From a virus, in the IMG/VR virus record IMGVR_UViG_3300030102_007788, positions 97,149-161,148 of that record: a stretch of 64,000 nucleotides of DNA; one strand, written 5' to 3'. The notes under the pieces were generated by a model that saw only the letters and a list, made by a program, of their open reading frames with translations, was not told the DNA's origin and searched no databases. Position 1 is the stretch's first letter, and each line of letters starts with the position of its first letter. Below are positions 3,711 to 19,603 of this stretch, piece after piece. Position numbers and translations under genes: made by a program.

Positions 3711-3850
3711 TGGCTAAATCAACAACAACGAGTAAGGTTACTTTCGGTAAAGGTCGAAAGAAGCGTAAAGGAATCCACGCTAAAACGAAGTCATCGTGGA
3801 ATCATAAAAGTAAAAATTATAGGAAGCGTTACAATGGGCAAGGCAGGTAA
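3710..3850 (+). CDS. Small very basic phage protein, 46 aa
   Basis: Coupled by TAATG to the upstream gene. The C-terminal part carries KGRKKRKGIHAKTKSSWN followed by SKNYRKRYNGQGR. I recall short basic proteins with this HAKTKS...KNYKKxYxGQGR signature from many phages and bacteria, without known function. Nucleic-acid binding is plausible from charge alone. Confidence 0.75.
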   Translation: MAKSTTTSKVTFGKGRKKRKGIHAKTKSSWNHKSKNYRKRYNGQGR

Positions 3851-7474: not shown

Positions 7475-7663
7475 ATGAGAAATACAACGTATCGTGTTAA
7501 TGTAACTCAAGAGGGCAATTCTCTCACCGTGGATTCAGTAGAGAAATTGCGTAAGTTTAACCAGCATCGCAGCGAGTGGGAGTCGGTAGCAAAGTCTACC
7601 TTCTCCGTCTCAAATAAAGATGCGACAACGCTCAAGTTTTCAAAGAAACGAAAGCGTAAGTAG
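7475..7663 (+). CDS. Small basic hypothetical protein, 62 aa
   Basis: It begins MRNTTYRVNVTQEGNSLTVD and ends in KFSKKRKRK. A CATACT box at 7459-7464 lies 10 nt before the ATG, matching the local promoter geometry, but its -35 is poor. It is followed by a very strong terminator. The positive tail suggests nucleic-acid contact; function unknown. Confidence 0.7.
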   Translation: MRNTTYRVNVTQEGNSLTVDSVEKLRKFNQHRSEWESVAKSTFSVSNKDATTLKFSKKRKRK

Positions 7664-8043: not shown

Positions 8044-8125
8044 CGTAAGTCATTGACTATCAAGCACTTACGTCGGCGGCGGGGGGGCGCCGCAGCCCTA
8101 AGTCACTGGCTATCAACGACTTAGG
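8044..8125. repeat. 82-bp triple-palindrome element, copy 1
   Basis: Two near-palindromic 29-mers (CGTAAGTC...ACTTACG and CCTAAGTC...GACTTAGG) flank a 24-bp GC core with seven G and the pair GCGGCG/CGCCGC. It lies between the AT-rich block and the first accessory cassette. The outer bases differ between the two 29-mers but change together (CG..CG versus CC..GG), so pairing is kept. Confidence 0.9.
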
Positions 8126-8194
8126 TACATTTTTAAATCACAACGTGGGCACGGTGTCAAGCAAAACAAAAATTTTATTTTTATATTTTTTGGG

Positions 8195-8223
8195 TTGACG
8201 GGGAACGTTTTTTAACATAGGAT
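8195..8223 (+). promoter_or_regulatory. Sigma70-type promoter for gene 8234-8476
   Basis: TTGACG, 17-bp gap, TAGGAT, then 10 nt ending in GTT before the ATG. Confidence 0.7.
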
Positions 8224-8233
8224 TAACGGCGTT

Positions 8234-8476
8234 ATGACAAGGCATATTGACAAACTACGGTACACGGAGGCATACGGCGAACAGGGTCACACTTATACTT
8301 TTACTGGCCCATGTATAGTCACGGGGGAGGAGTACAGCGTCACGGTTAAAGGGCCGGAACTTTTTAAGATGCGGCAAAATGATAGCATGATGGAATTAAA
8401 GTCATTAGATGCAGGCGACAGGGAGTTTTTGATTTCTGGAACCAGCCCGAAAGGATGGGACAAACTTTTTTCATAA
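8234..8476 (+). CDS. Small hypothetical protein, 80 aa
   Basis: Starts MTRHIDKLRYTEAYGEQGHT directly after its own promoter. A central segment (GPCIVTGEEYSVTVKGPEL) looks beta-rich. It is the first gene of the cassette between repeat copies 1 and 2. Function unknown. Confidence 0.75.
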   Translation: MTRHIDKLRYTEAYGEQGHTYTFTGPCIVTGEEYSVTVKGPELFKMRQNDSMMELKSLDAGDREFLISGTSPKGWDKLFS

Positions 8477-8492
8477 AAATTATTTTTATGGG

Positions 8493-8521
8493 TTGACTTG
8501 AACCAGTAAACAAAGTATTAT
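8493..8521 (+). promoter_or_regulatory. Sigma70-type promoter for gene 8533-9288
   Basis: TTGACT, 17-bp gap, TATTAT, then 11 nt ending CAGTT before ATG. Confidence 0.7.
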
Positions 8522-8532
8522 TTTTCTCAGTT

Positions 8533-9288
8533 ATGGCACTACTTAAATTCACATTTGAAAACGCAAAGCTGAAAGGCATTTGGCATTACTCACTACCAAG
8601 CGGCTTCACTTGCCCCGGCGCAAAAAGTTGTTTGACTTTCGCGGATAGGGTCACGGGTAAGATCACCGACAAGCAAACGGCGGTTGATGGCCAGAAGTTT
8701 CGCTGCTACGCTGCAATGGATGAGGCTCGGCGGCCTAATGTTCGCAAGCCACGTTGGGATAACTTCGATTTGTTAAAAGGTAAGACTATTAGCCAGATTG
8801 TCAAGTTGATAGTTGAGAGCATAAAGGAAACCGGATTGAAGCGGGGCGGGACGTTGCGTGTCCACATCGGCGGCGATTACTTTTCTCAAGTTTACTTCAA
8901 CGCATGGATGAAAGCAGCAAGTTTCTTTCCTAACATTATCTTTTATTCCTATACCAAAAGCATCAAGTTTTTACTGGACTACATTAAGAAAAACGGCGGC
9001 TTGCCAAGCAATTTTGTTTTTACCTGCTCGCGTGGTGGAAAGTATGATAATTTAATTCCCTCGACAATGGTTAAAAGCGCAAAGGTGTTTTTCTCCACCG
9101 ATGAGGCGAAGGCTCTCGGTTTGGATATCGACCACACCGACGACTTGGCAATCTCTGGTTCGGATGATTTTGCTTTGGTGATTCATGGAAGCCAGCCAGC
9201 AGGGAGCGAAGCAAGCAAGGCACTTTCGGCGAATAAGAAAAAGGGCTTTACAGGCTACAATAATTCTGCAACACTTGCCACCGCATAA
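8533..9288 (+). CDS. GP88-like conserved phage protein, 251 aa
   Basis: The N-terminal signature LPSGFTCPGAKSCLTFADR with a later CYAAMDEARRPNVRK strongly resembles the phage family called gene product 88, known from actinophages and many metagenomic phages and of unknown biochemical function. The conserved Cys residues (TCPGAKSC, then RCYA) could bind metal. Gly- and Ser-rich C-terminal residues follow. It has its own promoter and is coupled by TAATG to the tiny membrane gene downstream. Confidence 0.7.
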   Translation: MALLKFTFENAKLKGIWHYSLPSGFTCPGAKSCLTFADRVTGKITDKQTAVDGQKFRCYAAMDEARRPNVRKPRWDNFDLLKGKTISQIVKLIVESIKETGLKRGGTLRVHIGGDYFSQVYFNAWMKAASFFPNIIFYSYTKSIKFLLDYIKKNGGLPSNFVFTCSRGGKYDNLIPSTMVKSAKVFFSTDEAKALGLDIDHTDDLAISGSDDFALVIHGSQPAGSEASKALSANKKKGFTGYNNSATLATA

Positions 9289-9365
9289 TGGAAAGTCTTT
9301 GGGTCGTGGCCGGTTTGGTTATAGGTTTTATACTATGGATTAACTCACAACAACCAAGAGAATGA
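9288..9365 (+). CDS. Tiny membrane protein, 25 aa
   Basis: Start and stop overlap both neighbours (TAATG at 9288, ATGA at 9362). The sequence MESLWVVAGLVIGFILWINS is a single transmembrane helix with a polar tail. Coupling on both sides makes it likely real. Confidence 0.6.
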   Translation: MESLWVVAGLVIGFILWINSQQPRE

Positions 9366-9793
9366 AAAACAAAATCGAGTATGTAATGCAACAAGAGGGA
9401 GAGAAAAACGTGATTCTCGGAATCCGTGGTAACGATAGGGATTTAATCATTCGACATTACTGGGATTTTTGGAATCACGAAGCGACATCTTCAGAGGACA
9501 TAATCTGGGCGAATGATGTAGTGAAACCCTATTTGGGATATTTTTGGACTACTAAAACAAAACTAAAAAACGCTTTGGTTAATATGACTTTTAGCTCTCT
9601 ACTAAATTGTGAGAATTTAAGTCAGTTCAAGGGGTTGAAGGGTGGCGCGATGCCTTTCGCTAGGGACTACGCCAAATTGAGATATGACGACATTAAACCC
9701 GTCAGATTTCTTATGACAAAAAACAAATATGATTTTTACAGCTTGGGAAAGATAACAGCAGAAAATTTAACTGATTACGATGCAGCAAAATAA
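9362..9793 (+). CDS. Hypothetical protein, 143 aa
   Basis: Starts MKNKIEYVMQQEGEKNVILG in an ATGA overlap. Rich in Asp, Asn and aromatic residues (RHYWDFWNHEATSSEDIIW). It overlaps the next frame by 14 bases. Function unknown. Confidence 0.7.
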   Translation: MKNKIEYVMQQEGEKNVILGIRGNDRDLIIRHYWDFWNHEATSSEDIIWANDVVKPYLGYFWTTKTKLKNALVNMTFSSLLNCENLSQFKGLKGGAMPFARDYAKLRYDDIKPVRFLMTKNKYDFYSLGKITAENLTDYDAAK

Positions 9794-10001
9794 TAATACT
9801 GACACACACCAAACGGAGGAGGCTTTCGGAGTTCCTCAGGATCAATTAAGAGGATTAATATCTTCAGTAAATCAGGGATATAAAACTTTTTGTAAAAAGA
9901 AAAAAAACGCCTTGGGTAAAAAATGTGACCGAAGGCACATGATGCCAAATAGTGAGCGTTTATATAATCAGAATTTTGCCAACCCAAATAAAACTGATTA
10001 A
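9780..10001 (+). CDS. Small hypothetical protein, 73 aa
   Basis: Polar N-terminus (MQQNNNTDTHQTEEAF), then a basic segment with two Cys (FCKKKKNALGKKCDRRH). The last gene before the tRNA. Function unknown. Confidence 0.6.
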   Translation: MQQNNNTDTHQTEEAFGVPQDQLRGLISSVNQGYKTFCKKKKNALGKKCDRRHMMPNSERLYNQNFANPNKTD

Positions 10002-10022
10002 ATAATTATTAAATAATAACGG

Positions 10023-10096
10023 CGCGGGGTAGCCAAGTGGTAAGGCAGGTCTCTGCAAAAGACCCATCGTCGGTTCGATCCCGATCCTCGCGTCCA
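10023..10096 (+). tRNA. tRNA-Cys (anticodon GCA)
   Basis: All arms fold: acceptor CGCGGGG/CCTCGCG (one G-T), D arm GCC/GGC, anticodon stem GGTCT/AGACC with loop CTGCAAA giving GCA, 4-nt variable loop, T arm GTCGG/CCGAT with loop TTCGATC. The discriminator base is T, the identity element for cysteinyl-tRNA synthetase, and CCA is encoded. It is the only tRNA I find in the window and ends 14 bases before repeat copy 2. Confidence 0.95.
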
Positions 10097-10109
10097 TCTT
10101 CAAAACATA

Positions 10110-10191
10110 CGTAAGTCATTGACTATCAACGACTTAGGCGCGCAGCGCCCCCCCTCCGCCGGCGTAACCCATTGATAATCAGTCACTTAGG
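10110..10191. repeat. 82-bp triple-palindrome element, copy 2 (inverted)
   Basis: Same 29+24+29 layout and same 82-bp length, but the core runs the other way (seven C on the plus strand). The right-hand 29-mer has lost part of its palindrome (CGTAACCC). It sits between tRNA-Cys and the reverse DUF932 gene. Confidence 0.9.
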
Positions 10192-10219
10192 GCCTTTTTT
10201 CTGTCAAGCTTTTTTAATC

Positions 10220-10251
10220 AAAAAAAATCCCCCTCCCTTGCGGGAGGGGGT
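10220..10251 (-). terminator. Rho-independent terminator of the DUF932 gene
   Basis: On the minus strand a CCCCCTCCC/GGGAGGGGG stem with a short loop is followed by seven or more T. Confidence 0.85.
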
Positions 10252-10265
10252 TGATGGTGTTCCCC

Positions 10266-11201
10266 TTAGTTCGCGGCCAGATCGACCACGGTGGCAGTCT
10301 TCTGCTTTTCAGGAACCTTGGAGGTCAGCTTCTTAAAGAAGGCTGGCTCGCGGGTTGCCTTATGCAGATTGCCAAGCACGTTCCGGTTAGAGCGTGATGA
10401 CAGCTCAAACCGATGTTCCTGAACCTCGTGGGTGAGGTGTTGCGTGACCGCGTTGTACAGGTTGTACATATTGCGATCATGTGCCACGGCGTCATGGCCC
10501 GACTCGATCCGAAAAGACTTGTTAGTCCAGATCGGCGCGATGGAATCCTTGAGGGACTCAGACAGAACTTTTTTAATGACAAGATTGTCAAGAATCAGTT
10601 CGCCTTGCTCTTTGGACAGTTCAAACTCCCTCATTTTTTTGAAGACGTTCACCGACTCGCGGTATTTGTCCATGCACTCATTCAGCGAATCCGTGATTGA
10701 GTCGAAACTCAAACGGGTGCTGTGACGTTGGCTCAGGCTGGTATCGTTAACCATTGTGACCATGCCATTGCTGCAGATCTTCCGAAGAAGACCAAGACTC
10801 CAACTCAAACCACAACTCCGGTCAAAAGAGTTGTTGAGGGTCAGGCGCATCGAAACGATGTCACCGACGGCTACCTCCTCCTGCTGGCCGGGGAAGTCGT
10901 AAACCCCATAAAACCGCGCCCCATCACGGGTAGCTAGTTTTTTGGATTTGAATTCACCGAGGTTGCTACCACGAAGGGCTTCCTCGACCTTTTCAACAAC
11001 GACTCCGTTGTTGACGATTTCGTACTGCTTAGTGCTAGTACCCAGACAGACTCCATTGTCTGTGCGAAAGTTCCCGAAGATGGGGGACTTTCCGACCACT
11101 ACCGGTCTCTGCTTGTGATCATACAAGGGGCGTTGTTCCACCTCGTAATCATACTCGCGAGAGTGTAGCGTCTCTTTTGGTATGGATTGTTTTCTGCTCA
11201 T
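10266..11201 (-). CDS. DUF932 domain protein, 311 aa
   Basis: The sequence has the features of DUF932 (phage/plasmid-like protein family): GKSPIFGNFRTDNGVCLG, STKQYEIVNN, a central GARFYGVYDFPG, MRLTLNNSFDRSCGL and LRKICSNGMV, then a long helical C-terminus. The family is widespread in phages and plasmids; its biochemical role is not established. It forms a single-gene cassette between repeat copies 2 and 3 with its own promoter and terminator. Confidence 0.8.
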   Translation of the reverse strand: MSRKQSIPKETLHSREYDYEVEQRPLYDHKQRPVVVGKSPIFGNFRTDNGVCLGTSTKQYEIVNNGVVVEKVEEALRGSNLGEFKSKKLATRDGARFYGVYDFPGQQEEVAVGDIVSMRLTLNNSFDRSCGLSWSLGLLRKICSNGMVTMVNDTSLSQRHSTRLSFDSITDSLNECMDKYRESVNVFKKMREFELSKEQGELILDNLVIKKVLSESLKDSIAPIWTNKSFRIESGHDAVAHDRNMYNLYNAVTQHLTHEVQEHRFELSSRSNRNVLGNLHKATREPAFFKKLTSKVPEKQKTATVVDLAAN

Positions 11202-11232
11202 AACATTTTTAGTGCTTCCTCAGCACGCATTT

Positions 11233-11261
11233 ATATTCTCATAATCTGGCCACCGGGTCAA
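11233..11261 (-). promoter_or_regulatory. Promoter of the DUF932 gene
   Basis: On the minus strand: TTGACC, 17-bp gap, extended TGA-GAATAT. Unlike its relatives it has a 31-nt gap to the start codon. The leader contains a GTGCT/AGCAC hairpin (11212-11226) that shows GAGGA in its loop. Confidence 0.65.
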
Positions 11262-11331
11262 CCCTTTTTTTGTAATTATTTTTCTTTTTTTTATGCTTGA
11301 CTTTTCTGAACGAAACTCCGACAAGGTCCAT

Positions 11332-11413
11332 CCTAAGTCATTGGTAATCAAGGACTTAGGGCCGCGGCGGGGGGGCGCCGCCGGCGTAACCCACTGACTA
11401 TCAATAACTTACG
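11332..11413. repeat. 82-bp triple-palindrome element, copy 3
   Basis: Left 29-mer CCTAAGTC...GGACTTAGG, core with GGCGGGGGGGCGCC, right 29-mer CGTAACCC...ACTTACG. It abuts a minus-strand terminator. Confidence 0.9.
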
Positions 11414-11446
11414 ACAAAAAAAACCCACGGCGTTGGCCGTGGGTTA
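11414..11446 (-). terminator. Rho-independent terminator
   Basis: On the minus strand CCCACGGC/GCCGTGGG with loop CAAC is followed by eight T. It ends the transcript carrying gene 11580-11822 and its structured tail. Confidence 0.85.
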
Positions 11447-11453
11447 GTGTTAT

Positions 11454-11584
11454 GAAGAGACGTATAGATGTCTCAGGAGAGTGAAGCCCTCGCCTTGGTA
11501 AAACCCGCTAGGGTAGAAAGTATAAAACCCCTAACGGTAAAACCCAAGGCAAGGGCGACTTGAAGGAAAGGAGGAACCTTCAAG
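11454..11584 (-). ncRNA. Structured RNA in the 3' tail of gene 11580-11822
   Basis: Three hairpins lie between the stop codon and the terminator. The central one has a 13-bp stem (11486-11498 with 11544-11556), an internal loop carrying GGGTTTTACC on both sides and an inner 7-bp stem (11507-11513 with 11529-11535). In both stems the imperfect pair is C-A on the plus strand but G-U on the minus strand, so the RNA is expected on the minus strand, matching gene and terminator. The hairpin at 11559-11584 has a perfect 8-bp stem and loop TTCCTCCTTT, equal to the anti-Shine-Dalgarno CCUCCUU of 16S rRNA. Function unknown. Confidence 0.6.
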
Positions 11585-11822
11585 CACCTTTAGGAAGTAA
11601 CCAGCTCCCTAAAATTCTCAGAAAATTTGGCTTTGTGAGATAGCGGTCAACTTCTTTTTGAGTAGCCAACCGAAGGTGTTCGGCGGGAATCGCTTTCTGA
11701 TTCTTTCCGTGTCTTTCGGTGACAACTCTTGATTTGCTGAAGTTGTTTGAGATTACGCGCTCAACTTTTTTTGTCTTTGTATTGTAGTACAACGAACCGT
11801 TTCTTATCTTGGTAAGTTTCAT
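11580..11822 (-). CDS. Small basic hypothetical protein, 80 aa
   Basis: The start (MKLTKIRNGSLYYNTKTK) is set by the promoter at 11833-11861, 10 nt upstream. A longer in-frame reading to 11897 would run through that promoter. The protein is basic with a hydrophobic end (FLRILGSWLLPKGA). Its stop codon lies in the first hairpin of the structured 3' tail. Function unknown. Confidence 0.7.
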   Translation of the reverse strand: MKLTKIRNGSLYYNTKTKKVERVISNNFSKSRVVTERHGKNQKAIPAEHLRLATQKEVDRYLTKPNFLRILGSWLLPKGA

Positions 11823-11832
11823 AACTGAGAAA

Positions 11833-11861
11833 AGTATGCCCCACACAGGGAGCATTGTCAA
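11833..11861 (-). promoter_or_regulatory. Sigma70-type promoter for gene 11580-11822
   Basis: Minus strand TTGACA, 17-bp gap, CATACT, then 10 nt to ATG (CAGTTATGA). Divergent from the promoter at 11886-11914. Confidence 0.7.
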
Positions 11862-11885
11862 CATGAAAAAAAACAAAAAAAGGGG

Positions 11886-11914
11886 TTGACCATTCACAAA
11901 AAGTATGATTAAAT
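11886..11914 (+). promoter_or_regulatory. Sigma70-type promoter for gene 11925-12344
   Basis: TTGACC, 17-bp gap, extended TGA-TTAAAT, then 10 nt ending CGTT before ATGAGG. Confidence 0.7.
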
Positions 11915-11924
11915 TATCTCCGTT

Positions 11925-12344
11925 ATGAGGAAGTACATTCCATGGGAAAAGGCAGAGAGCTTCGCTCCGGATCGCGTCAAGGTGTATCGCAACCTCACTT
12001 ACAAGTGTTGGACTATATGCGATGCGAAGGATGGCAAGCTATATTGTCATGCGGATAGTGTTGACTTGCGTGATTGCAAGTTTCGGGTGCAGCCAGCAGG
12101 CCGCGCAAGAGTCTTGAAGGAGCGGCAGAAGAACGTCCACGCTTACGTGGTCGGAAAGTTCCACGATGTGAACTTCGAGCAGGCGCACTATATGCCTCGC
12201 GGCTACAAATTCGCGCAGGCTTTCTACAATCCTTATAGGGTTGAAACGTTTGTGAATTATCACAATGGCACGCCGCTATATGAAGCGGCACGGGTTGTCT
12301 GCAAAAAGGCAGCAGACGGGGCAATGAACATTTATTACGCTTGA
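11925..12344 (+). CDS. Hypothetical protein, 139 aa
   Basis: Starts MRKYIPWEKAESFAPDRVKV. It is rich in aromatic and basic residues with several single Cys; the codon use is more GC-rich than that of late genes, suggesting a separate origin. No family recognised. The next promoter begins inside its last codons (12341). Confidence 0.75.
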   Translation: MRKYIPWEKAESFAPDRVKVYRNLTYKCWTICDAKDGKLYCHADSVDLRDCKFRVQPAGRARVLKERQKNVHAYVVGKFHDVNFEQAHYMPRGYKFAQAFYNPYRVETFVNYHNGTPLYEAARVVCKKAADGAMNIYYA

Positions 12345-12369
12345 CAGCGTACCCTGTCTAATATATAGT
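12341..12369 (+). promoter_or_regulatory. Sigma70-type promoter for gene 12392-12643
   Basis: TTGACA, 17-bp gap, TATAGT. Here the leader is longer (22 nt to ATG) and contains AAGGGA as a ribosome-binding site, unlike the near-leaderless family members. Confidence 0.75.
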
Positions 12370-12391
12370 TATCAGCAGTTAAGGGAACAAC

Positions 12392-12643
12392 ATGAATCAG
12401 AATCAAATGGATGATCATTGGCTGAGGCCGCGAACAAAAGCGGGAACTGAAGAGATGCGGAAAAGACTCAAAGCTATGAGGTTTATGCTGGAAGAAGCAG
12501 CGGCTCAAAGCCTAGAGGGCCGGATAGCTTCTAAGGTATTCAATGAATACTTTTCTTTCGAGTGGGAGGATGTACCATCCCTAGAAGAAAAAAAAGTAGA
12601 TTTAACGAAAAAGGTGGTTGACACCGCTGCCAGTGTGCAGTAA
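12392..12643 (+). CDS. Small hypothetical protein, 83 aa
   Basis: Starts MNQNQMDDHWLRPRTKAGTE after a proper Shine-Dalgarno. The helical middle (MRKRLKAMRFMLEEAAAQSL) could form a coiled coil. The last codons contain the promoter of a downstream RNA. Function unknown. Confidence 0.7.
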   Translation: MNQNQMDDHWLRPRTKAGTEEMRKRLKAMRFMLEEAAAQSLEGRIASKVFNEYFSFEWEDVPSLEEKKVDLTKKVVDTAASVQ

Positions 12644-12646
12644 GAT
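12618..12646 (+). promoter_or_regulatory. Promoter of structured RNA 1
   Basis: TTGACA, 17-bp gap, TAAGAT; the -10 box contains the stop codon of the upstream gene. No start codon follows; instead a folded RNA begins near 12653. Confidence 0.65.
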
Positions 12647-12652
12647 GAGTTT

Positions 12653-12813
12653 TCCCTTCGGGGACTTGTTAATATAACTTGTATATCTGTCTCCCTGTTA
12701 GTGGAGGTTAACTAACAAAGGTTATAGTAGTCGCACCTTCAATTGTATTATTGTTGTGTTTCATAGTAAAGGGAGTCAGACTGGGCTGACTTAAAACAAC
12801 CCAGACGCTTTTT
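12653..12813 (+). ncRNA. Candidate structured RNA 1
   Basis: About 160 nt between a strong promoter and a terminator-like hairpin (CTGGG 12781-12785 with CCCAG 12800-12804, then TTTTT). A long-range stem joins TCTGTCTCCC (12686-12695) and GGGAGTCAGA (12771-12780). Inside are TGTTAGT/ACTAACA with loop GGAGGTTA (12696-12717) and AAGGT/ACCTT. The GGAGG in the loop is a bare Shine-Dalgarno. There is no open frame of note. No known RNA family is recognised. Confidence 0.55.
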
Positions 12814-12840
12814 GAAAATTTGAGTTGACGGAGTTAAATA
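12812..12840 (+). promoter_or_regulatory. Possible promoter of structured RNA 2
   Basis: TTGAAA, 17-bp gap, TAAATA. An alternative -35 TTGACG at 12825 lacks a good -10. RNA 2 could also be made by read-through from RNA 1. Confidence 0.4.
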
Positions 12841-12846
12841 CCCCTG

Positions 12847-13101
12847 CGAGTTTCCGTACATTTACTCGTGCCCGTTTTACTGCTGGTGGTGCGGCAGCAA
12901 CTCATTAATTTCCCTTCTCGACGGAGAAGGGCGGTGTGACGGAATTAATCTCTCCCAAGGAGATAACGTAGCACCTGCGGAAGTACCAACGGCTAAGTGG
13001 TTGAGGGAAAACGTGGGTGAGTCCGAAGTAGGTTGATAAGAAACTTTGTTTCTCGGGAACCGAAAAGGTGTTGGTAAACAAATAATCCAACCACCATTTT
13101 T
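12847..13101 (+). ncRNA. Candidate structured RNA 2
   Basis: About 255 nt with several stems: CGAGT/ACTCG; ATTAATT (12905 region) with AATTAAT enclosing a perfect CCCTTCTC/GAGAAGGG hairpin; TCTCC/GGAGA; GAAAC/GTTTC; and a final GGTGTTGG/CCAACCACC stem before TTTTT. It has no convincing coding frame. I looked for tmRNA, RNase P and group I intron landmarks and did not find them. Confidence 0.5.
13067..13101 (+). terminator. Terminator of structured RNA 2
   Basis: GGTGTTGG pairs with CCAACCACC (one bulged base), followed by ATTTTTAATTT. Confidence 0.55.
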
Positions 13102-13112
13102 AATTTATAACA

Positions 13113-13328
13113 ATGAAAACTAAACACGCCCAAAGAAAGGCAGAGAAAAGAAAGGCAACCCGCAGCCTTAAACTTGATGCGGTCAAGACTCGCGACATAA
13201 TTGTCCGTGGCTTGAAGCAAGAAGTTAAAAGAGACTTTCGTCGCTGGAAAAAGAATCATGCTGGCAAGGTTGAGATAATTTCTCATATTAAAAAATTGGA
13301 ATCGCAGGTTAATCAAATATTCTCATAA
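13113..13328 (+). CDS. Small basic hypothetical protein, 71 aa
   Basis: Starts MKTKHAQRKAEKRKATRSLK; strongly basic and helical, so nucleic-acid binding is plausible. It lies 11 bases after the terminator of RNA 2, and is coupled by TAATG to the zinc-knuckle gene. A separate promoter is not evident. Confidence 0.65.
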   Translation: MKTKHAQRKAEKRKATRSLKLDAVKTRDIIVRGLKQEVKRDFRRWKKNHAGKVEIISHIKKLESQVNQIFS

Positions 13329-13507
13329 TGATTTGCTATGAGTGTGGCATCAAAGCCCAACGCAAAGAAACAAGATCAGCCAAGAAAGAAAGCCGCGATC
13401 CTCAAATAACTATTAGATGCGGCACATGGCGTAAAGGTTCATGCGATAAGTGTAAGAAAAAAAGAATTCATGTAACAGAAATTTCTGATTTTATTCTGAT
13501 TAAATAA
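13328..13507 (+). CDS. Small zinc-knuckle protein, 59 aa
   Basis: The ATG overlaps the previous stop. The protein has CYECG near the N-terminus and CDKCKKKR later, two CxxC-type pairs that could hold one zinc ion, with many Lys and Arg between them. Probably a nucleic-acid-binding or regulatory protein; function unknown. Confidence 0.65.
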   Translation: MICYECGIKAQRKETRSAKKESRDPQITIRCGTWRKGSCDKCKKKRIHVTEISDFILIK

Positions 13508-13602
13508 GAAGTAAATAAGGATTAAATAAATAACAAATATTGTTAAATTCTTTTAATTTCTGAGAAAAAAATTATTTTTTTGAAAAAAATTCTTAAAAAG
13601 CA

Positions 13603-13684
13603 CCTAAGTCACTGGTAATCAGTCACTTACGACTCCGGAGGGGGGGCGCCGCAGCCGTAAGTCATTGGTATTCAACGACTTAAG
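13603..13684. repeat. 82-bp triple-palindrome element, copy 4
   Basis: Left 29-mer CCTAAGTC...CACTTACG, core GGAGGGGGGGCGCCG, right 29-mer CGTAAGTC...GACTTAAG. It separates forward from reverse genes. Confidence 0.9.
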
Positions 13685-13706
13685 GTGTTTTTTTTGTCAA
13701 GGTTTT

Positions 13707-13931
13707 TTAGCCTTGATAGCGGTAGGCTCCGAGCAGGTCGCCGCCCCAACCGTGGGCAACGGTGCAGCCGTCCTCTTCCAGAATCCAAGGCCACATATTG
13801 TCATCAGCCTGCTGGGCCAACTCCAAAGCCTTGTCCATTGCCGAATGGTCAACACCGGCTTCATTGGTGAATTCCTTGCTGCTCACCCTGTTGGTGTCCT
13901 CGTTCTTCCAGTACAATGTATATGTCCTCAT
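13707..13931 (-). CDS. Small acidic hypothetical protein, 74 aa
   Basis: MRTYTLYWKNEDTNRVSSKE follows its own promoter. Acidic with a Trp-rich segment (NMWPWILEEDG). Single-gene unit in the cassette after copy 4. Function unknown. Confidence 0.75.
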   Translation of the reverse strand: MRTYTLYWKNEDTNRVSSKEFTNEAGVDHSAMDKALELAQQADDNMWPWILEEDGCTVAHGWGGDLLGAYRYQG

Positions 13932-13940
13932 AACGGAATT

Positions 13941-13968
13941 ATCTTATCACAAGTTCAGAAAAAGTCAA
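13941..13968 (-). promoter_or_regulatory. Sigma70-type promoter for gene 13707-13931
   Basis: Minus strand TTGACT, 16-bp gap with TTTTCTGA after the -35, extended TGA-TAAGAT, 9 nt, then GTTATGAG. Confidence 0.7.
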
Positions 13969-13989
13969 CAGGTTTTTTTAATTTTTTGA

Positions 13990-14018
13990 CAAAAAAAAGC
14001 CGCCCCGAAGGGCGGCCT
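13990..14018 (-). terminator. Rho-independent terminator for gene 14030-14512
   Basis: Minus strand GCCGCCC/GGGCGGC with a 4-nt loop, then eight T. Confidence 0.85.
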
Positions 14019-14029
14019 AGGTAACCCCG

Positions 14030-14512
14030 TTAGGAAAGTTCCTTGATTTGGGCCTTGACGGCGATGAGTCGCGCCGTTTGTTTCGCGATCTCGTCGCGGG
14101 TCACGGAGCGGCGTTTGTCGTAATCCTGAAGCTCTTCGAGCTTCGCGGTGATGTCGCGCAGATCACTCTGCAACTCGTCGAGCTTTTGCTGCTTGACGTT
14201 GTCCACCGGCTTGGCCTTTTCGGCTTTGGCTTTCGCCTTTTCGGCTTTGGCTTTCGCCTTGGCCTCAAGCTCATGGGTTGGAAGCTCTCTGGCGATCCTC
14301 GCGAAGTACGGATTGGTTTTCGCGCTGGATTTGCCGTTGAGCTTGGCCTCGGTTTGGTGTCCGCGTTGTTGAGCGCACTTCACCGCAAAGCCCTTGATGG
14401 CGAGGTTAATCGCGTCAAGGTTAGTTGCTTTGCCCGACAGTAGGTCGCTGATTACGTTGCTCAGCATGATTGAGTCGTCAGCCCTGTTCATTCCGTTATT
14501 GGATTTTTTCAT
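14030..14512 (-). CDS. Coiled-coil hypothetical protein, 160 aa
   Basis: The middle carries a repeated KAKAEKAKAKAEKAK segment and the last third heptad-like Leu repeats (LDELQSDLRDITAKLEELQD), so a coiled coil is expected. AGGAC stands 7 nt before the ATG. It follows the zinc-rich gene 14557-15585 on the same strand and is closed by a terminator. Function unknown. Confidence 0.75.
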   Translation of the reverse strand: MKKSNNGMNRADDSIMLSNVISDLLSGKATNLDAINLAIKGFAVKCAQQRGHQTEAKLNGKSSAKTNPYFARIARELPTHELEAKAKAKAEKAKAKAEKAKPVDNVKQQKLDELQSDLRDITAKLEELQDYDKRRSVTRDEIAKQTARLIAVKAQIKELS

Positions 14513-14535
14513 TTAGTTTTGTCCTTTCGTTTTGT

Positions 14536-14552
14536 GTTAGCGTTACGCTAAC
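14536..14552. other. Perfect 7-bp inverted repeat
   Basis: GTTAGCG-TTA-CGCTAAC between genes 14512 and 14557. No T run on either side, so it is more likely an operator or an mRNA-processing hairpin than a terminator. Confidence 0.5.
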
Positions 14553-14556
14553 GGGG

Positions 14557-15585
14557 TTAATGCCACCACCTACTATTCGCAGTCGAGCTATAACTCAAAC
14601 TCTGCATGCTGCATCCGGTGGCTTTTATGTACGCTCTCTTGAGTTTAAGAAGATTTCTGTGATCTTCTATCATCTCTTGAGAAATTTCTTTACTACTTAC
14701 TGAAAAACCTTCTTGTAAAAACTGGGCTTGTATTACAGATTTTACATAGGAGTCTTCAAGATTATCTCTGCATTTTTGACCTGCTGCTATACTCTGGTCT
14801 CGATACTTATTTTTTTGTTCTTTTGTTATCAACTCCTCCCGATAATGTTTATCAAAGCATGATTCCTTGCAATATGCGCGGGCTTGACCGCCGGGAATTA
14901 TAGGTTTCCCTTCCGCATCCCACCAACTGATAAAACTAAAATCTTTTTTGCAGCCAATACAGTTATGAGTAAACTCTCTTTTTGTTATATCTTTTGGAAT
15001 GTATGGCCAGTTCTTAATTGAGCCATATTTTTTATTCCAAACACCTTGGAACAGTCTCCAGCCGTGTTGACATTTAGCGTTTTTGCATACTTTTTGCCTG
15101 TTGCCATACCTTCGTTCAAAGGTTCCTTGGCAGTATGGGCAAGTGGCCGTGGGGTAGTTTCCGTTTTTGTCGTGAGTCAATCTTGGATTACCGTTGATGT
15201 CCAGCTTTGGTTTTTGCTGTTTAGCAACTTGATTCCGTCTTGCCGCTTCTTTTCTGCTGCATTTTACAGAGCAAAATTTGAATCGGCTCTTTTCGCTTGG
15301 CTTTGATAATTTACCCCTAGTTGTCCACTTTTTCCTTGTTATCTGGTATGTTTTTTCGCAACCTTCAGCCTCGCATACGAATGTATTAGTGACAGTCTCT
15401 TTATATTTGTCGGACTTCAGAAAATTCTGGATTTTTTCGCGTGATTTTGCACCAATTCTTTCGGCGGCGATTCTTCGCGCCATTCCCCCATTATTGTCAA
15501 AGCAAGTTTTGTTTTCATCTTCTCTGCAATACTTCGCTCCTAGTTTTGGATTTATTTTTGAGCCGCAGGCTTTGCACTTCCTCAT
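14557..15585 (-). CDS. Multi-zinc-knuckle protein, 342 aa
   Basis: The protein carries at least five Cys pairs or clusters: MRKCKACG, FVCEAEGCEKTY, KFCSVKCSRKEA, ATCPYCQG, KVCKNAKC, NCIGCKKDF and AYCKESC. This layout of treble-clef-like knuckles separated by basic helices recalls phage-borne homing endonucleases and zinc-finger regulators, but no His-Asn-His core is seen. It has its own promoter with a near-leaderless start. Function unknown. Confidence 0.75.
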   Translation of the reverse strand: MRKCKACGSKINPKLGAKYCREDENKTCFDNNGGMARRIAAERIGAKSREKIQNFLKSDKYKETVTNTFVCEAEGCEKTYQITRKKWTTRGKLSKPSEKSRFKFCSVKCSRKEAARRNQVAKQQKPKLDINGNPRLTHDKNGNYPTATCPYCQGTFERRYGNRQKVCKNAKCQHGWRLFQGVWNKKYGSIKNWPYIPKDITKREFTHNCIGCKKDFSFISWWDAEGKPIIPGGQARAYCKESCFDKHYREELITKEQKNKYRDQSIAAGQKCRDNLEDSYVKSVIQAQFLQEGFSVSSKEISQEMIEDHRNLLKLKRAYIKATGCSMQSLSYSSTANSRWWH

Positions 15586-15595
15586 AACAGAGATA

Positions 15596-15624
15596 ATCCT
15601 AATTTATTCTGGCTGGAGAGTCAA
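15596..15624 (-). promoter_or_regulatory. Sigma70-type promoter for gene 14557-15585
   Basis: Minus strand TTGACT, 17-bp gap, TAGGAT, 10 nt ending TGTT before ATGAGG. Confidence 0.7.
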
Positions 15625-15633
15625 CAATTTATT

Positions 15634-16302
15634 TTAATTATTTTTAATTAAAGACCGATACATTTTTTCACAATTAACGAATGCCATCATCAACATTTTA
15701 CTTTGGGGCGAGGTTGCGTAAGGATGCGACCAAATGCACAACCAATCTTTTTCTGAAAATTTTCTTTCAACATATGGCTCCAAATTGTGTGCATAGTTGC
15801 CGCCACCGTCTCGAATTTCCCAGTCCAAATCATGTGAGCCGCGTCCACTTGTTCTGAGGAAAGTCACGACAACAATTGAACCCTTTGCGCATTGTTCTGT
15901 TGATTCTGCCATGCGCGTTCTCGTTGCCGCTCCGCAGTAATCGCGCCAGATAAACATTGGATTATTATAATAATTAAAATCAACCACACCGTTTCGGGGC
16001 ATTTCAATATTCTGATAAGTTAAAATGTCATCATTCTGGTCAATCATCCTGCTTACTTTTGGTGAGTCGAGATTACGCCAAAATATGTCTTCCTCTTTCT
16101 CATAACAAAACAGTTTTGTATTTTCTTGCCTTGCTGTTTTCAATATTTCTTTTTCTTGAGCCCAGACAACATATGGTAACGTAGCAATGGCTTTTGCTTT
16201 TTTAGAGTGATACCTTTCAAAGTTTACCCGCAACCCATCAACTAAGTGACGAGCCTTTACCTTTTCATTCTTCTCACTTATCTCTGCCTTGTAGTTTGTC
16301 AT
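15634..16302 (-). CDS. Hypothetical protein, 222 aa
   Basis: An N-terminal basic helix region is followed by VDFNYYNNPMFIWRDYCGAA and SIVVVTFLRTSGRGSHDLDW. The combination of an aromatic DYCG motif and a following hydrophobic strand recalls phage-borne Rossmann-type methyltransferase-like proteins, but I cannot identify a cofactor motif, so the function stays open. The leader upstream contains a GCCG/CGGC hairpin. Confidence 0.7.
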   Translation of the reverse strand: MTNYKAEISEKNEKVKARHLVDGLRVNFERYHSKKAKAIATLPYVVWAQEKEILKTARQENTKLFCYEKEEDIFWRNLDSPKVSRMIDQNDDILTYQNIEMPRNGVVDFNYYNNPMFIWRDYCGAATRTRMAESTEQCAKGSIVVVTFLRTSGRGSHDLDWEIRDGGGNYAHNLEPYVERKFSEKDWLCIWSHPYATSPQSKMLMMAFVNCEKMYRSLIKNN

Positions 16303-16467
16303 TTTTGATTGGTTTTAAGCCGAGGGTGGTTAGTCCCCCGGCACAGGAATATATTGGCATAAAAAAACTTTTAAGACAAGGGAAAAAAGTATTTTTTTTG
16401 CAATAAAATTATTTTTTTAAATGGGGAAGATGGCACAGAACCTGCACCGGAGAAGGGGTCAAAAAAA

Positions 16468-16549
16468 CGTAAGTCATTGATTACCAGTGGTTTACGCCTG
16501 CGGCGGGGGGGCGCCGAGGCCGTAAGTCATTGATACTCAGTCACTTACG
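16468..16549. repeat. 82-bp triple-palindrome element, copy 5
   Basis: Left 29-mer CGTAAGTC...GTTTACG, core GCGGCGGGGGGGCGCCG, right 29-mer CGTAAGTC...CACTTACG. It is in a 406-base gene-free interval that also holds a terminator. Confidence 0.9.
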
Positions 16550-16581
16550 ACTTTTTTTATTATTTTAATTTTTTTACTTGA

Positions 16582-16621
16582 CAAAAATGCCCCGCCGAGC
16601 TCATGAGGACTCGACGGGGCT
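16582..16621 (-). terminator. Rho-independent terminator downstream of the SleB gene
   Basis: Minus strand GCCCCGTCGAG pairs with CTCGGCGGGGC and runs into TTTTT. Confidence 0.8.
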
Positions 16622-16643
16622 GCGTTATGAGATTGGGGTCTTA

Positions 16644-16704
16644 TTAAGTGCGACAGCTTCCCCCGTTGCCGTTGTCTAGGTCACTATCATGCCTCCGCAC
16701 TTAA
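16644..16704. other. Long hairpin between SleB gene and terminator
   Basis: TTAAGTGCG (16644-16652) pairs perfectly with CGCACTTAA (16696-16704), enclosing an inner GACAGC/GTTGTC stem. It would be the folded 3' tail of the SleB transcript, but the inner stem pairs slightly better on the plus strand, so the active strand is unclear. Confidence 0.4.
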
Positions 16705-16708
16705 ATTA

Positions 16709-17191
16709 TTATAATTTATAAAACACGTGTTGGCCGATTGTCTTGACGGGCTTTTGACCTTTTGCCCAGTAAGGTAATTTTTTCATCCATGTGGCATGGT
16801 AGTGATTAGCGAAGCCAACATATTCGCGGCTTAAAGTTTTGACATTCTTTGCAACGGTGATGGCGTATTTTGCCTGTGGCACTTTCAACAAATGCTCAAG
16901 GTCTTTTAGCTTTTTTCCATTCCAACAACTAAATTGCCATTTTTTAAGGCATACCTCCGTGGGAGTTTGTTTTCTTTCAAATGCTCGTTGAGCAATGACA
17001 GCACCCACCGCGTACATTCCTTTTTCCCCTTCCCCTCTGGCTTCCGCCAATATAGTAATTGCGACGACTTTTTCCTCACGGGTGAGGCTTTGGTTGCTGT
17101 GTGTGTGGGCGTAAGCATAAACAGAGTTAACAATTAAAAACAATTGAAAAACAACAGGTAATAAACAAACTGATATAATTAATTTTCTCAT
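16709..17191 (-). CDS. SleB-type cell wall hydrolase (endolysin)
   Basis: The protein (160 aa from ATG at 17191) has an N-terminal hydrophobic signal (MRKLIISVCLLPVVFQLFLI) and a domain matching the cell wall hydrolase SleB family: AITILAEARGEGEKGMYAVG with the likely catalytic Glu, a CLKKWQFSCW segment and ANHYHATWMKKLPYW. Such enzymes cut peptidoglycan. The signal suggests export by the host Sec system, as in signal-arrest or secreted endolysins. GGAG precedes the ATG, and the upstream gene ends 4 bases away. A longer reading to 17224 lacks such a site. It lies far from the holin and spanins at 59 kb. Confidence 0.85.
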   Translation of the reverse strand: MRKLIISVCLLPVVFQLFLIVNSVYAYAHTHSNQSLTREEKVVAITILAEARGEGEKGMYAVGAVIAQRAFERKQTPTEVCLKKWQFSCWNGKKLKDLEHLLKVPQAKYAITVAKNVKTLSREYVGFANHYHATWMKKLPYWAKGQKPVKTIGQHVFYKL

Positions 17192-17195
17192 TTTT

Positions 17196-17414
17196 TTATT
17201 CTCCATCCATTGAGGTTGGTTCACCGTGCAGGGCGTTAGTGATTTTGGCCCGTGATTGGGCTAGGTCGTCGGCAAGCCGTTTGCAAGTCTCGCGCATTTC
17301 CTCAACTGTTAAGTATGTGGATTTTGCGAGGTGTTCTAGGACTCCTTCAGTCTCGGCGATTGTCACTTGGGCCGTGCTGATTTTTCTTTCGTTTGCGTAG
17401 TCAATCATTCTCAT
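17196..17414 (-). CDS. Small helical hypothetical protein, 72 aa
   Basis: MRMIDYANERKISTAQVTIA, almost wholly helical and polar. It shares a transcript with the SleB gene. Function unknown. Confidence 0.7.
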   Translation of the reverse strand: MRMIDYANERKISTAQVTIAETEGVLEHLAKSTYLTVEEMRETCKRLADDLAQSRAKITNALHGEPTSMDGE

Positions 17415-17424
17415 AACAGAAAAA

Positions 17425-17453
17425 AGTATAGTTTAGTTTTCGGGTAAGGTCAA
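17425..17453 (-). promoter_or_regulatory. Sigma70-type promoter for 17196-17414 and SleB
   Basis: Minus strand TTGACC, 17-bp gap, TATACT, 10 nt ending CTGTT before ATGAG. One of the clearest members of the family. Confidence 0.8.
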
Positions 17454-17503
17454 CAGTAAAATTGCATTTAATAGCAAAAAAATTATTGTGCAGGTTAGGA
17501 CGG

Positions 17504-17770
17504 TCATTTGCTGAAATGGCCGTGATCTTCAAAACATTTGACGATCTCAACGACACGGTGAATGTCACCAGTCAACACCTTGTTTCCGTCAAGGTCTTTC
17601 TCTAGCACCACGCTGTTGTGGTATTGGTCAATCATCTCCTGCTCAGTTGTGCCAAGCGGGAAAGTGCAGCCTCCTACATTGTTAACACGGGCCATAAAGT
17701 GGTTGCCGGTGTAGGTTGGGTTCTTCTCCACTTTGAAGGTAACATTTAAGAATGGTTTCTTATCTCTCAT
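17504..17770 (-). CDS. Small hypothetical protein, 88 aa
   Basis: The start MRDKKPFLNVTFKVEKN is fixed by the promoter at 17781-17808; the frame is open further upstream to 17884, but that reading crosses the promoter and the next gene. Mixed alpha/beta composition. Function unknown. Confidence 0.75.
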   Translation of the reverse strand: MRDKKPFLNVTFKVEKNPTYTGNHFMARVNNVGGCTFPLGTTEQEMIDQYHNSVVLEKDLDGNKVLTGDIHRVVEIVKCFEDHGHFSK

Positions 17771-17780
17771 AACGGGAATT

Positions 17781-17808
17781 AGTATATCAGAATTTTTTAA
17801 AAAGTCAA
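17781..17808 (-). promoter_or_regulatory. Sigma70-type promoter for gene 17504-17770
   Basis: Minus strand TTGACT, 16-bp gap, extended TGA-TATACT, 10 nt, CGTTATGAG. Confidence 0.8.
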
Positions 17809-17828
17809 CAACTATTTTCAACTTTTTT

Positions 17829-18026
17829 TCAACCGCCGATGGCGATCTCGGCGATTGCCTCACGCCATGCGTCACAAGCCGCATCTACGTCGAGCTTGTT
17901 CTCGTAGGCCCAGCGAATGACTTCGCCCTCGTAGTCCTTGTCGATGCCACCGAAGCCCAGCTCCCAGTAGTTGCAATGTTTCGTGACCTCGTTGAAGTAG
18001 TCTTTGTAATTGTTCATATCTCTCAT
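17829..18026 (-). CDS. Small acidic hypothetical protein, 65 aa
   Basis: MRDMNNYKDYFNEVTKHCNY; acidic, Ala- and Trp-containing helical C-terminus. Single gene with its own promoter. Function unknown. Confidence 0.75.
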   Translation of the reverse strand: MRDMNNYKDYFNEVTKHCNYWELGFGGIDKDYEGEVIRWAYENKLDVDAACDAWREAIAEIAIGG

Positions 18027-18036
18027 AACGGAAAAC

Positions 18037-18064
18037 AGTATATCACAGCCTCAGAAAATTGCAA
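18037..18064 (-). promoter_or_regulatory. Promoter for gene 17829-18026 (TTGCAA type)
   Basis: Minus strand TTGCAA, 16-bp gap starting TTTTCTGA, extended TGA-TATACT, 10 nt, CGTTATGAG. Confidence 0.75.
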
Positions 18065-18164
18065 GCTTTTTTTCTCATATTTTTTTATTTTTATTAAAAA
18101 AACTTTTTTTAATAATTCGCACAGGTTGGCACGGAAACCCATCGGCAAAACACGCCTTAGAATA

Positions 18165-18246
18165 CGTAAGTCACTGATAGTCAACGACTTACGCCGCCGG
18201 CGGGGGGGCGCCGCGCTCCTAAGTGACTGATACTCAAGGACTTACG
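18165..18246. repeat. 82-bp triple-palindrome element, copy 6
   Basis: Left 29-mer CGTAAGTC...CGACTTACG, core CCGGCGGGGGGGCGCCG, right 29-mer CCTAAGTG...GACTTACG. Confidence 0.9.
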
Positions 18247-18274
18247 ACTTCAAACAGAGTTTTTTATTTAATCA

Positions 18275-18300
18275 CAAAAAAACCCCGCCTTGGCGGGGTG
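18275..18300 (-). terminator. Rho-independent terminator of gene 18319-18513
   Basis: Minus strand CCCCGCC/GGCGGGG with a two-base loop, then seven T. Confidence 0.85.
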
Positions 18301-18318
18301 ACTTGGCACGGTTCCTGA

Positions 18319-18513
18319 TTAACCGGCGGCGATCAGCAGGTCAAGGGCAGCGTCCTCGGCGAGCTGCGCGTCAGACTGGCGGCCCATCTCATCCGCGACC
18401 ATGTCCGCGTCCTGCGCGGCGATGTCCGCCTCGCGACGCTCATCACACCACGCGTTCAACTCAAACTCCTCCTCGCAGGAGAGTTCCATGAATAACGATT
18501 TCATCATTCCCAT
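18319..18513 (-). CDS. Small acidic protein, 64 aa
   Basis: From the promoter-defined ATG at 18513 the product begins MGMMKSLFMELSCEEEFELN and is very acidic with Asp/Glu/Ala-rich helices. Small acidic proteins are typical phage DNA mimics and host-enzyme inhibitors, but this is only a compositional hint. The frame is open to 18597, which would cross the promoter. Confidence 0.7.
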   Translation of the reverse strand: MGMMKSLFMELSCEEEFELNAWCDERREADIAAQDADMVADEMGRQSDAQLAEDAALDLLIAAG

Positions 18514-18523
18514 AACAGAAAAA

Positions 18524-18551
18524 AGAGTAACAGAATCAGAAAAAAAGTCAA
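18524..18551 (-). promoter_or_regulatory. Sigma70-type promoter for gene 18319-18513
   Basis: Minus strand TTGACT, 16-bp gap, extended TGT-TACTCT, 10 nt, CTGTTATGGG. Confidence 0.7.
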
Positions 18552-18560
18552 CGAAAAAAA

Positions 18561-18776
18561 TCAGTTTTTTTCGGGATCCTCCCACACGATTTCCCAATCG
18601 TATGGGGAGTTGGACAAGTCACACGGAGCGACCTTGCACTTGACAGCGGACTTGGCCTCACGGGCACAAGTGATAGCAGCCTCAAGACCCTCATGGCTCG
18701 GAGCGAACCAGCGAACAAACTCAAGCCGACCAGTGGCGGACTTGACCTCAACGAAGTATTTAGCATGAAACCTCAT
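18561..18776 (-). CDS. Small hypothetical protein, 71 aa
   Basis: MRFHAKYFVEVKSATGRLEF; a beta-alpha-beta-like pattern with two Cys. Own promoter; the next gene's promoter lies just behind its stop. Function unknown. Confidence 0.7.
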   Translation of the reverse strand: MRFHAKYFVEVKSATGRLEFVRWFAPSHEGLEAAITCAREAKSAVKCKVAPCDLSNSPYDWEIVWEDPEKN

Positions 18777-18786
18777 AACAGAAAAA

Positions 18787-18814
18787 AGAATATCAGAATC
18801 TCAGGAAAAGTCAA
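18787..18814 (-). promoter_or_regulatory. Sigma70-type promoter for gene 18561-18776
   Basis: Minus strand TTGACT, 16-bp gap with TTTCCTGA, extended TGA-TATTCT, 10 nt, CTGTTATGAGG. Confidence 0.75.
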
Positions 18815-18823
18815 CAATAAATC

Positions 18824-18958
18824 TCACTTTTTTTTTCTTTTTAATCCGCGCTTAAACTGCTCCCATGTGGGGCGTTCAGCTTCGGGGATTGCCTTCCATT
18901 CTTTCATCTGCGCTTGACGTAGCAGCGCACCACCAAAAGATTTAATATTATCACTCAT
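18824..18958 (-). CDS. Very small hypothetical protein, 44 aa
   Basis: Short open frame (MSDNIKSFGGALLRQAQMKE, tail LKRKKK) found because it starts exactly 10 nt behind a family promoter. Basic C-terminus. Function unknown. Confidence 0.65.
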   Translation of the reverse strand: MSDNIKSFGGALLRQAQMKEWKAIPEAERPTWEQFKRGLKRKKK

Positions 18959-18968
18959 AACGAAAAAA

Positions 18969-18996
18969 ATTTTATCAGAATTTCAGGAGATTGCAA
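18969..18996 (-). promoter_or_regulatory. Promoter for gene 18824-18958 (TTGCAA type)
   Basis: Minus strand TTGCAA, 16-bp gap, extended TGA-TAAAAT, 10 nt, CGTTATGAG. Confidence 0.7.
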
Positions 18997-19007
18997 CCTT
19001 TTTTTAA

Positions 19008-19169
19008 TTATTTTCCCATGTTCAGCCAAGTGCTGAATGAACGTTGCATGCGGTTGCGTCGAGCTTGGCGATTGAGCTTGCGGTATCGTGCATTCCATTT
19101 GTCGGCTGTGCTGTCCAAAACTTTTTTGATTGTTTCTTCGCTGATGTTTAATCCTTTGTTATCTTTCAT
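19008..19169 (-). CDS. Very small basic protein, 53 aa
   Basis: MKDNKGLNISEETIKKVLDS followed by WNARYRKLNRQARRNRMQRS: a helical, Arg-rich protein starting just behind a promoter. Nucleic-acid binding is plausible. Function unknown. Confidence 0.6.
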   Translation of the reverse strand: MKDNKGLNISEETIKKVLDSTADKWNARYRKLNRQARRNRMQRSFSTWLNMGK

Positions 19170-19175
19170 AGTATT

Positions 19176-19204
19176 AAAGTATCATAATTTTTTTAGGTTT
19201 GCAA
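19176..19204 (-). promoter_or_regulatory. Promoter for gene 19008-19169 (TTGCAA type)
   Basis: Minus strand TTGCAA, 17-bp gap, extended TGA-TACTTT, only 6 nt to ATG, so the transcript would be leaderless. Confidence 0.6.
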
Positions 19205-19246
19205 GAAAAACTTTTAATTATTTTTGGCATGGTTCCTGCCTAGGTG

Positions 19247-19328
19247 CGTAAGTCACTGATAGTCAATGGGTTATGGGCGCGGGAGGGGGGCGCCGCCGGC
19301 GTAAGTCCTTGGTAGTCAACGACTTACG
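19247..19328. repeat. 82-bp triple-palindrome element, copy 7
   Basis: Left 29-mer CGTAAGTC...GGGTTATG (decayed), core GCGGGAGGGGGGCGCCGCC with six G, right 29-mer CGTAAGTC...CGACTTACG. The length is again exactly 82 bp. Confidence 0.9.
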
Positions 19329-19349
19329 TACTGGCGTTGGCGTTGGGGG

Positions 19350-19511
19350 TTACCCCCCGAAACAAGAGGGGCACGACTCAAAAAATTTGCACCAGCACCG
19401 GTCATCAGCCTCGGTCTCGGCCTCGTCGAAGCCGTTGGCGACTGTGACGTTGGCGACCCAAGCGTCAGACTGCATTTCGAAAACCTCTTCGCATGTAATG
19501 TTATCTCTCAT
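19350..19511 (-). CDS. Very small acidic Cys-containing protein, 53 aa
   Basis: From the promoter-defined ATG at 19511: MRDNITCEEVFEMQSDAWVA, ending RCWCKFFESCPSCFGG. The C-terminal Cys cluster (CWC, CPSC) could bind metal. The open frame continues to 19715 but crosses the promoter. Function unknown. Confidence 0.65.
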   Translation of the reverse strand: MRDNITCEEVFEMQSDAWVANVTVANGFDEAETEADDRCWCKFFESCPSCFGG

Positions 19512-19521
19512 AACGGGGATC

Positions 19522-19549
19522 AGTATACCACAACCGCAGAAAAGTGCAA
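19522..19549 (-). promoter_or_regulatory. Promoter for gene 19350-19511 (TTGCAC type)
   Basis: Minus strand TTGCAC, 16-bp gap, extended TGG-TATACT, 10 nt, CGTTATGAG. Confidence 0.7.
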
Positions 19550-19603
19550 GCATTATTTTCATTTTTTTGAAAAAAGTTTTTCTTATTTTTTTTGATTTAG
19601 GGC

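Follow-up and report, generated by a model that had tools for sequence, protein, structure and literature searches.

Seven repeats of 82 bp, dispersed over positions 8044–19328 of a 64,000-nucleotide stretch of viral DNA (IMG/VR record IMGVR_UViG_3300030102_007788, positions 97,149–161,148; the whole stretch is referred to below as the window), are members of a DNA element family, not described before, that many uncultured phages carry. Each element contains four copies of a conserved half-site, CGTAAGTCNTTGA (also written CGTAAGTC), arranged as two inverted pairs flanking a GC core. The elements are probably four-site landing pads for a DNA-binding protein at transcription-unit boundaries, and a promoter often follows at an integral number of helical turns. 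As far as could be found, no described element matches, and none of the records and papers retrieved describes it.

The element and its relatives

The virus record of 170,406 bases contains seven copies, all inside the window (Table 1). The starts and the constant 82 bp length (29 + 24 + 29) given in the original prediction were exact for every copy, and the inversion reported for copy 2 was borne out by the orientation of its core. A loose half-site pattern gave 28 matches in the window (14 palindromes, both strands), all of them within the seven elements, with 0.78 expected from shuffles; the same pattern revealed no further element in the 106 kb of the virus record that lie outside the window. 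The copies had also been placed only in gene-free gaps, which holds generally, except that a mechanically called open reading frame (ORF) starts at 19273 inside the last copy.

The pattern TAAGTCNYTGRTNNTCARYNACTTA was searched for in IMG/VR and in bacterial and archaeal genomes totalling 257 Gb. It was present in at least 119 IMG/VR stretches, and 82 stretches of the cellular genomes gave an exact palindrome match. A cellular origin was rejected on inspection of 24 of these 82: some were tRNA terminators or a chromosomal repeat, and paired elements occurred only on two small contigs of metagenome-assembled genomes, which may be misbinned phage. A perfect match to the 29-mer is embedded in a repeat, at least 170 bp long, that is dispersed over the Verrucomicrobiae chromosome OX638380.1 (L140, L194, L197, L206, L210). 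The element was not found in the cultured phages of INPHARED.

The viral form consists of a 29-mer, a core and a second 29-mer, mostly with a single core length per virus; the start-to-start distance of the 29-mers was 40–62, mostly 41, 42, 50, 52, 53 or 58. The earlier statement that the lengths never differ applies within a virus, but the cores of relatives range from 11 to 29 nt and a few viruses mix two lengths. The 29 records that were read more or less in full held 4–17 copies each. These sat in one region per record, a region of small genes, except in G010 (copies near both record ends).

A weight-matrix scan found 612 distinct elements; 420 kb of shuffled sequence yielded none. Presence was re-scored with this matrix because some of the viruses initially scored as lacking the element turned out to have a version with a single palindrome. 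In these relatives (L510, L511, L516, L523, L535, L542, L548) the GC core is combined with one 29-mer, often ∼40 nt before a TTGACA-17-TATAAT promoter; in L511 the order was always core, 29-mer, ∼40 nt, promoter. In L062 an extra 29-mer lies 61–62 bp before each of the elements at 3757, 4377 and 5059, giving a six-half-site array. The elements of L018, L034 and L112 (29 nt core) have the centre GACCCC-NNN-GGGGTC, with a triloop that can point either way with respect to the arms (TTC/GAA, GTA/TAC).

Conservation of half-sites

Partner half-sites were compared in elements of related viruses (279 and 399 elements) without any palindromy filter, and their agreement equalled the base-frequency expectation at nearly every position. 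It had been proposed that pairing is kept between the copies. In the seven copies 83.9% of the pair cells were standard pairs versus 84.1% in shuffles, and no excess covariation was detected; self-complementarity was weak and confined to the GC core. Describing the repeat as a triple palindrome misleads, since conservation acts at the level of half-sites rather than of base pairs. A structured RNA element was rejected as a candidate, pairing being at the base-frequency expectation in the elements of related viruses and in the window copies. The arms share one clade-wide profile (identity 0.743 within a virus and 0.716 between viruses), whereas the cores are virus-specific (0.775 within and 0.501 between). 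Mean G+C content was 85% in the core and 42% in the arms; one virus had a core of mixed composition.

Helical phasing to promoters

The strongest functional clue is the phasing of the elements relative to promoters. The distance from the element edge to the −35 box of a downstream sigma-70-like promoter with a nearby ATG showed peaks near 18, 28, 39, 49, 58 and 67. The Rayleigh R at 10.5 bp was 0.372 (n = 179), or 0.334 after similar spacers had been removed (n = 117), and the best period was 10.2–10.4 bp. A jitter of 6 nt served as the null model, and none of 3,000 jittered sets reached either R value. When the upstream ORF boundary was used as a control anchor for the same promoters no phasing was seen (R = 0.027, p = 0.89). 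Dissimilar spacers share lengths that are 10 apart (29/39/49 or 18/28/38). Of 392 promoter-like sites in these regions, 126 had an element within 130 nt upstream, and only 13 had one on the downstream side. Phasing to the −35 box fits a bound protein that acts with RNA polymerase.

One weak promoter site in the window, at 11261 ahead of the DUF932 gene, lies ∼70 nt from an element. At 13935–19573 the promoters of several single-gene units (TTGAC or TTGCA, 16–17 nt, TATACT) leave almost no leader, the ATG following TATACT by ∼10 nt in a common CGTTATGAG context.

A putative composite operator

We give an even chance to the reading that the elements are composite operators for a trans-acting protein that serve early-type transcription units. 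Each element would be a double-stranded DNA operator that takes up one DNA-binding protein as two dimers, one per 29-mer. Every 29-mer is an inverted pair of half-sites of ∼11–13 bp; the GC core would set the distance and add a virus-specific feature. The elements would mark the boundaries of small, separately promoted units in an early-type gene region. Where a sigma-70-type promoter follows, the element and the −35 box would lie on the same helix face, a layout as for an upstream regulator touching RNA polymerase or for a complex whose action depends on rotational position. A single factor from phage or host would thereby control 4 to 17 units together. Related viruses have the elements or lack them as a whole set, and this common loss or gain of all copies fits one trans factor. 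A protein-binding site was among the functions originally suggested, and it is the best supported of them, by independently conserved half-sites, the lack of covariation and the helical phasing to promoters.

Several observations count against this operator reading. A promoter with an ATG within 220 nt (strict pattern) was detected for only 249 of 582 elements. Convergent gaps are occupied too, and two such gaps in the window show no promoter. Promoter-like sites are equally dense in element-free relatives. The phasing null is simple and the related viruses are not fully independent. Finally, no G000 protein family was general in element-bearing viruses and missing from others; the trans factor may be host-encoded or fast-evolving.

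If the element is an operator, it opens a way into the regulation of phages that have no cultured relatives, and a specific protein that binds it should exist. A wider proposal, which we put forward tentatively and consider rather unlikely, is that the elements are viral regulatory DNA of a kind not seen before. On this view a four-site complex whose core differs from virus to virus would combine a domain boundary with a phase-dependent upstream regulator of exchangeable single-gene units, which would keep their shared control when swapped between phages. The conserved arm and virus-specific core, together with the exchange of units, make common control of swapped gene blocks testable.

Placement in gaps

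The gaps of elements 1–4 were found to be occupied in three relatives (L296, L297, L298; GP88 76–81% identical to that of the window phage) when the same gaps were compared, as the original prediction had proposed; this argues for selection on place. Conserved element gaps hold between relatives at 53–82% protein identity. In L296–L298 every copy has a 23 nt core instead of 24, so that the core changes in all copies together. The classed elements lay in tandem (84), convergent (21) and divergent (15) gaps. Relative to the number of gaps they were commonest in convergent ones (22 of 41 occupied), and those in divergent gaps sit upstream of both promoters.

This use of all three gap types, and the position of the window elements between the terminator of one unit and the promoter of the next, would also suit nucleoid, supercoiling or insulator sites at unit boundaries. 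Such sites would be bound by a host or phage protein in a role like that of bacterial interspersed mosaic elements (BIMEs) and would not be promoter-specific. This explanation is judged unlikely: helical phasing with −35 boxes is unnecessary for such a role, and many units of the same region have no element.

Recombination at the elements

In two virus pairs an element–cassette–element arrangement in one virus corresponds to a single chimeric element in the other, with the junction in the GC core (G043/G017) or in the core or just after it (G005/G031). Breakpoints per kb numbered 5.06 in elements, 3.54 in other intergenic DNA and 1.72 in ORFs. This stricter count replaced a first one (22.5% versus 7.3%) that was inflated by the repeats themselves. 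One gene with its element was found in either orientation. In L268 a 91 nt insert between two elements (18836–18926) contains a tandem duplication but no gene.

The chimeric junctions, the breakpoint excess, the two orientations and the likeness of cores within a virus would be expected if the elements were short shared sequences bounding gene cassettes, where phage homologous recombination or a novel recombinase exchanges, removes, adds or flips a cassette, the core having to match within a genome for exchange. We think this quite unlikely. Tyrosine recombinase (PF00589) was found in 0 of 48 records, with no integrase, and serine recombinase (PF00239) in 0 of 40, although a host enzyme could act instead; breakpoints exceed those of other intergenic DNA by no more than 1.4-fold, relatives hold the same gaps and promoter phasing would be unexpected.

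Of the recombination or mobility unit considered originally, the two junctions and the modest enrichment speak in favour. The role looks secondary because neither a recombinase nor a REP-associated tyrosine transposase (RAYT; REP, repetitive extragenic palindromic) was found and because the elements hold their gaps between relatives; the events look like ordinary recombination at shared sequences, although they may still reflect a site-specific role.

RNA-level and mobile-repeat explanations

The predicted folding of the window copies is strong (z −2.2 to −5.8) and part of the copies have A- or T-rich flanks, as would suit a bidirectional terminator, an RNase III processing site or an mRNA end stabiliser made of three hairpins. 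We nevertheless regard an RNA-level element as improbable. Covariation is lacking, and the folds of the seven copies are unlike each other (three hairpins or one long hairpin). A conserved terminator tail is weak: 279 of 598 elements, under half, had a T-rich flank no more than 16 nt away on one side or both. Strong separate terminators stand beside elements 2, 3, 5 and 6, and the divergent-gap copies precede both promoters. These points also disfavour the transcript-processing signal that had been offered as an option. A search of the window against curated RNA families returned tRNA-Cys as the sole match; no element was matched.

A non-autonomous mobile repeat of the REPIN (REP doublet forming a hairpin) or miniature inverted-repeat transposable element type, spreading within phage genomes, would account for a palindrome doublet with constant spacing, many copies, a homogeneous core per genome and a patchy distribution, but is very improbable given the conserved gaps, the single region per genome, the phasing with promoters and the absence of RAYT-type transposase (PF01797) from 40 of 40 element-bearing records, many of them fragments, with control genomes positive.

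Virus clade and other features of the window

PhoH, a sigma-like protein, a 369-aa protein without an assigned role and an ERCC4-type nuclease are encoded by adjacent genes common to 25 of the 29 records; TerL belongs to the same block in 24. The clade is large (at least 586 matches to the 369-aa protein) and uncultivated, and comparison of TerL and ERCC4 gave only distant cultured relatives. The element is a hallmark of many of its members; the motif was absent from 47 of 50 further clade records, and records of 178, 162 and 95 kb without it also lacked other repeated palindromes. On a GP88 tree element presence changes at least nine times (shuffled mean 20.6). A tendency of element-free viruses to have co-directional genes was seen in three genomes but was modest in general (0.44 versus 0.32 switches, p = 0.009).

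Elsewhere in the window, a 530-aa protein (26054–27646), unusual for a phage, combines N-terminal ankyrin repeats with a region that weakly matches a nucleotide cyclase catalytic domain (E 0.0003, just under the Pfam cut-off). A phage protein with a mechanosensitive ion channel domain (PF00924, E 8e-7) is encoded at 30302–30814. Two giant ORFs of 3210 aa (42206–51838) and 1526 aa (51839–56419) contain at least 18 repeats encoding an NVGIGTT-like motif.

Table 1. Elements and neighbouring features in the window
Feature	Position	Strand	Remarks
Element 1	8044..8125	+	29-mer, 24 nt GC core, 29-mer; between gene 7475-7663 and the 8234/GP88 genes
Promoter-like site	8195..8223	+	−35 69 nt past edge of element 1
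GP88 family gene	8533..9288	+	Within element region; present in 25/29 element-bearing records
Element 2	10110..10191	-	Inverted core; convergent gap, tRNA-Cys/DUF932 gene
Separate intrinsic terminator of DUF932 gene	10229..10250	-	Adjoins element 2
DUF932 family gene	10266..11201	-	Within element region
Element 3	11332..11413	+	Between DUF932 gene and gene 11580-11897
Separate intrinsic terminator	11422..11445	-	Adjoins element 3
Element 4	13603..13684	+	Convergent gap following gene 13328-13507
Element 5	16468..16549	+	Between 15634-16302 and 16709-17224 (cell wall hydrolase), both genes minus strand
Separate intrinsic terminator	16589..16620	-	Adjoins element 5
Promoter-like site	18037..18064	-	TTGCAA-16-TATACT, directly before ATG; −35 100 nt past element 6
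Element 6	18165..18246	+	Between minus-strand transcription units
Separate intrinsic terminator	18282..18299	-	Adjoins element 6
Promoter-like site	19177..19204	-	−35 42 nt past element 7
Element 7	19247..19328	+	Upstream of minus-strand promoter at 19204

Comparison with known systems

The BIMEs of enterobacteria are composite palindromic units made of REP units and, like the element, stand at transcription-unit boundaries, but there is no sequence relation between them; to our knowledge, no phasing is known for BIMEs. REP doublets and REPINs share with the element two palindromes at fixed spacing, an extragenic location and many copies. They belong to cellular genomes and are associated with a GTAG or CGTC tag and a RAYT transposase (PMC3116915, PMC3733652); in contrast, our alignments showed neither tag unpaired at one element end and the flank consensus was ACAA, no RAYT was found and the positions are conserved. 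The class I and II repeats of the HF1-group haloviruses are likewise long, intergenic and strategically positioned relative to transcripts in viral genomes (PMC7230728). These archaeal-virus repeats are AT-rich, contain the promoter and have reported promoter activity, whereas the element is GC-cored and palindromic and lies upstream of sigma-70-type promoters. The stoperators and operators of mycobacteriophage L5 type are also many short protein-binding sites scattered through one phage genome, in promoter regions and in short gaps between genes, and form the regulon of one phage protein, as is putatively the case here (PMC9283540). Each stoperator is one asymmetric 13-mer whose orientation follows transcription, and its phages are temperate and have a repressor; in contrast, the present elements have four half-sites in two inverted pairs around a GC core, occur without a detected integrase and occupy tandem, convergent and divergent gaps.

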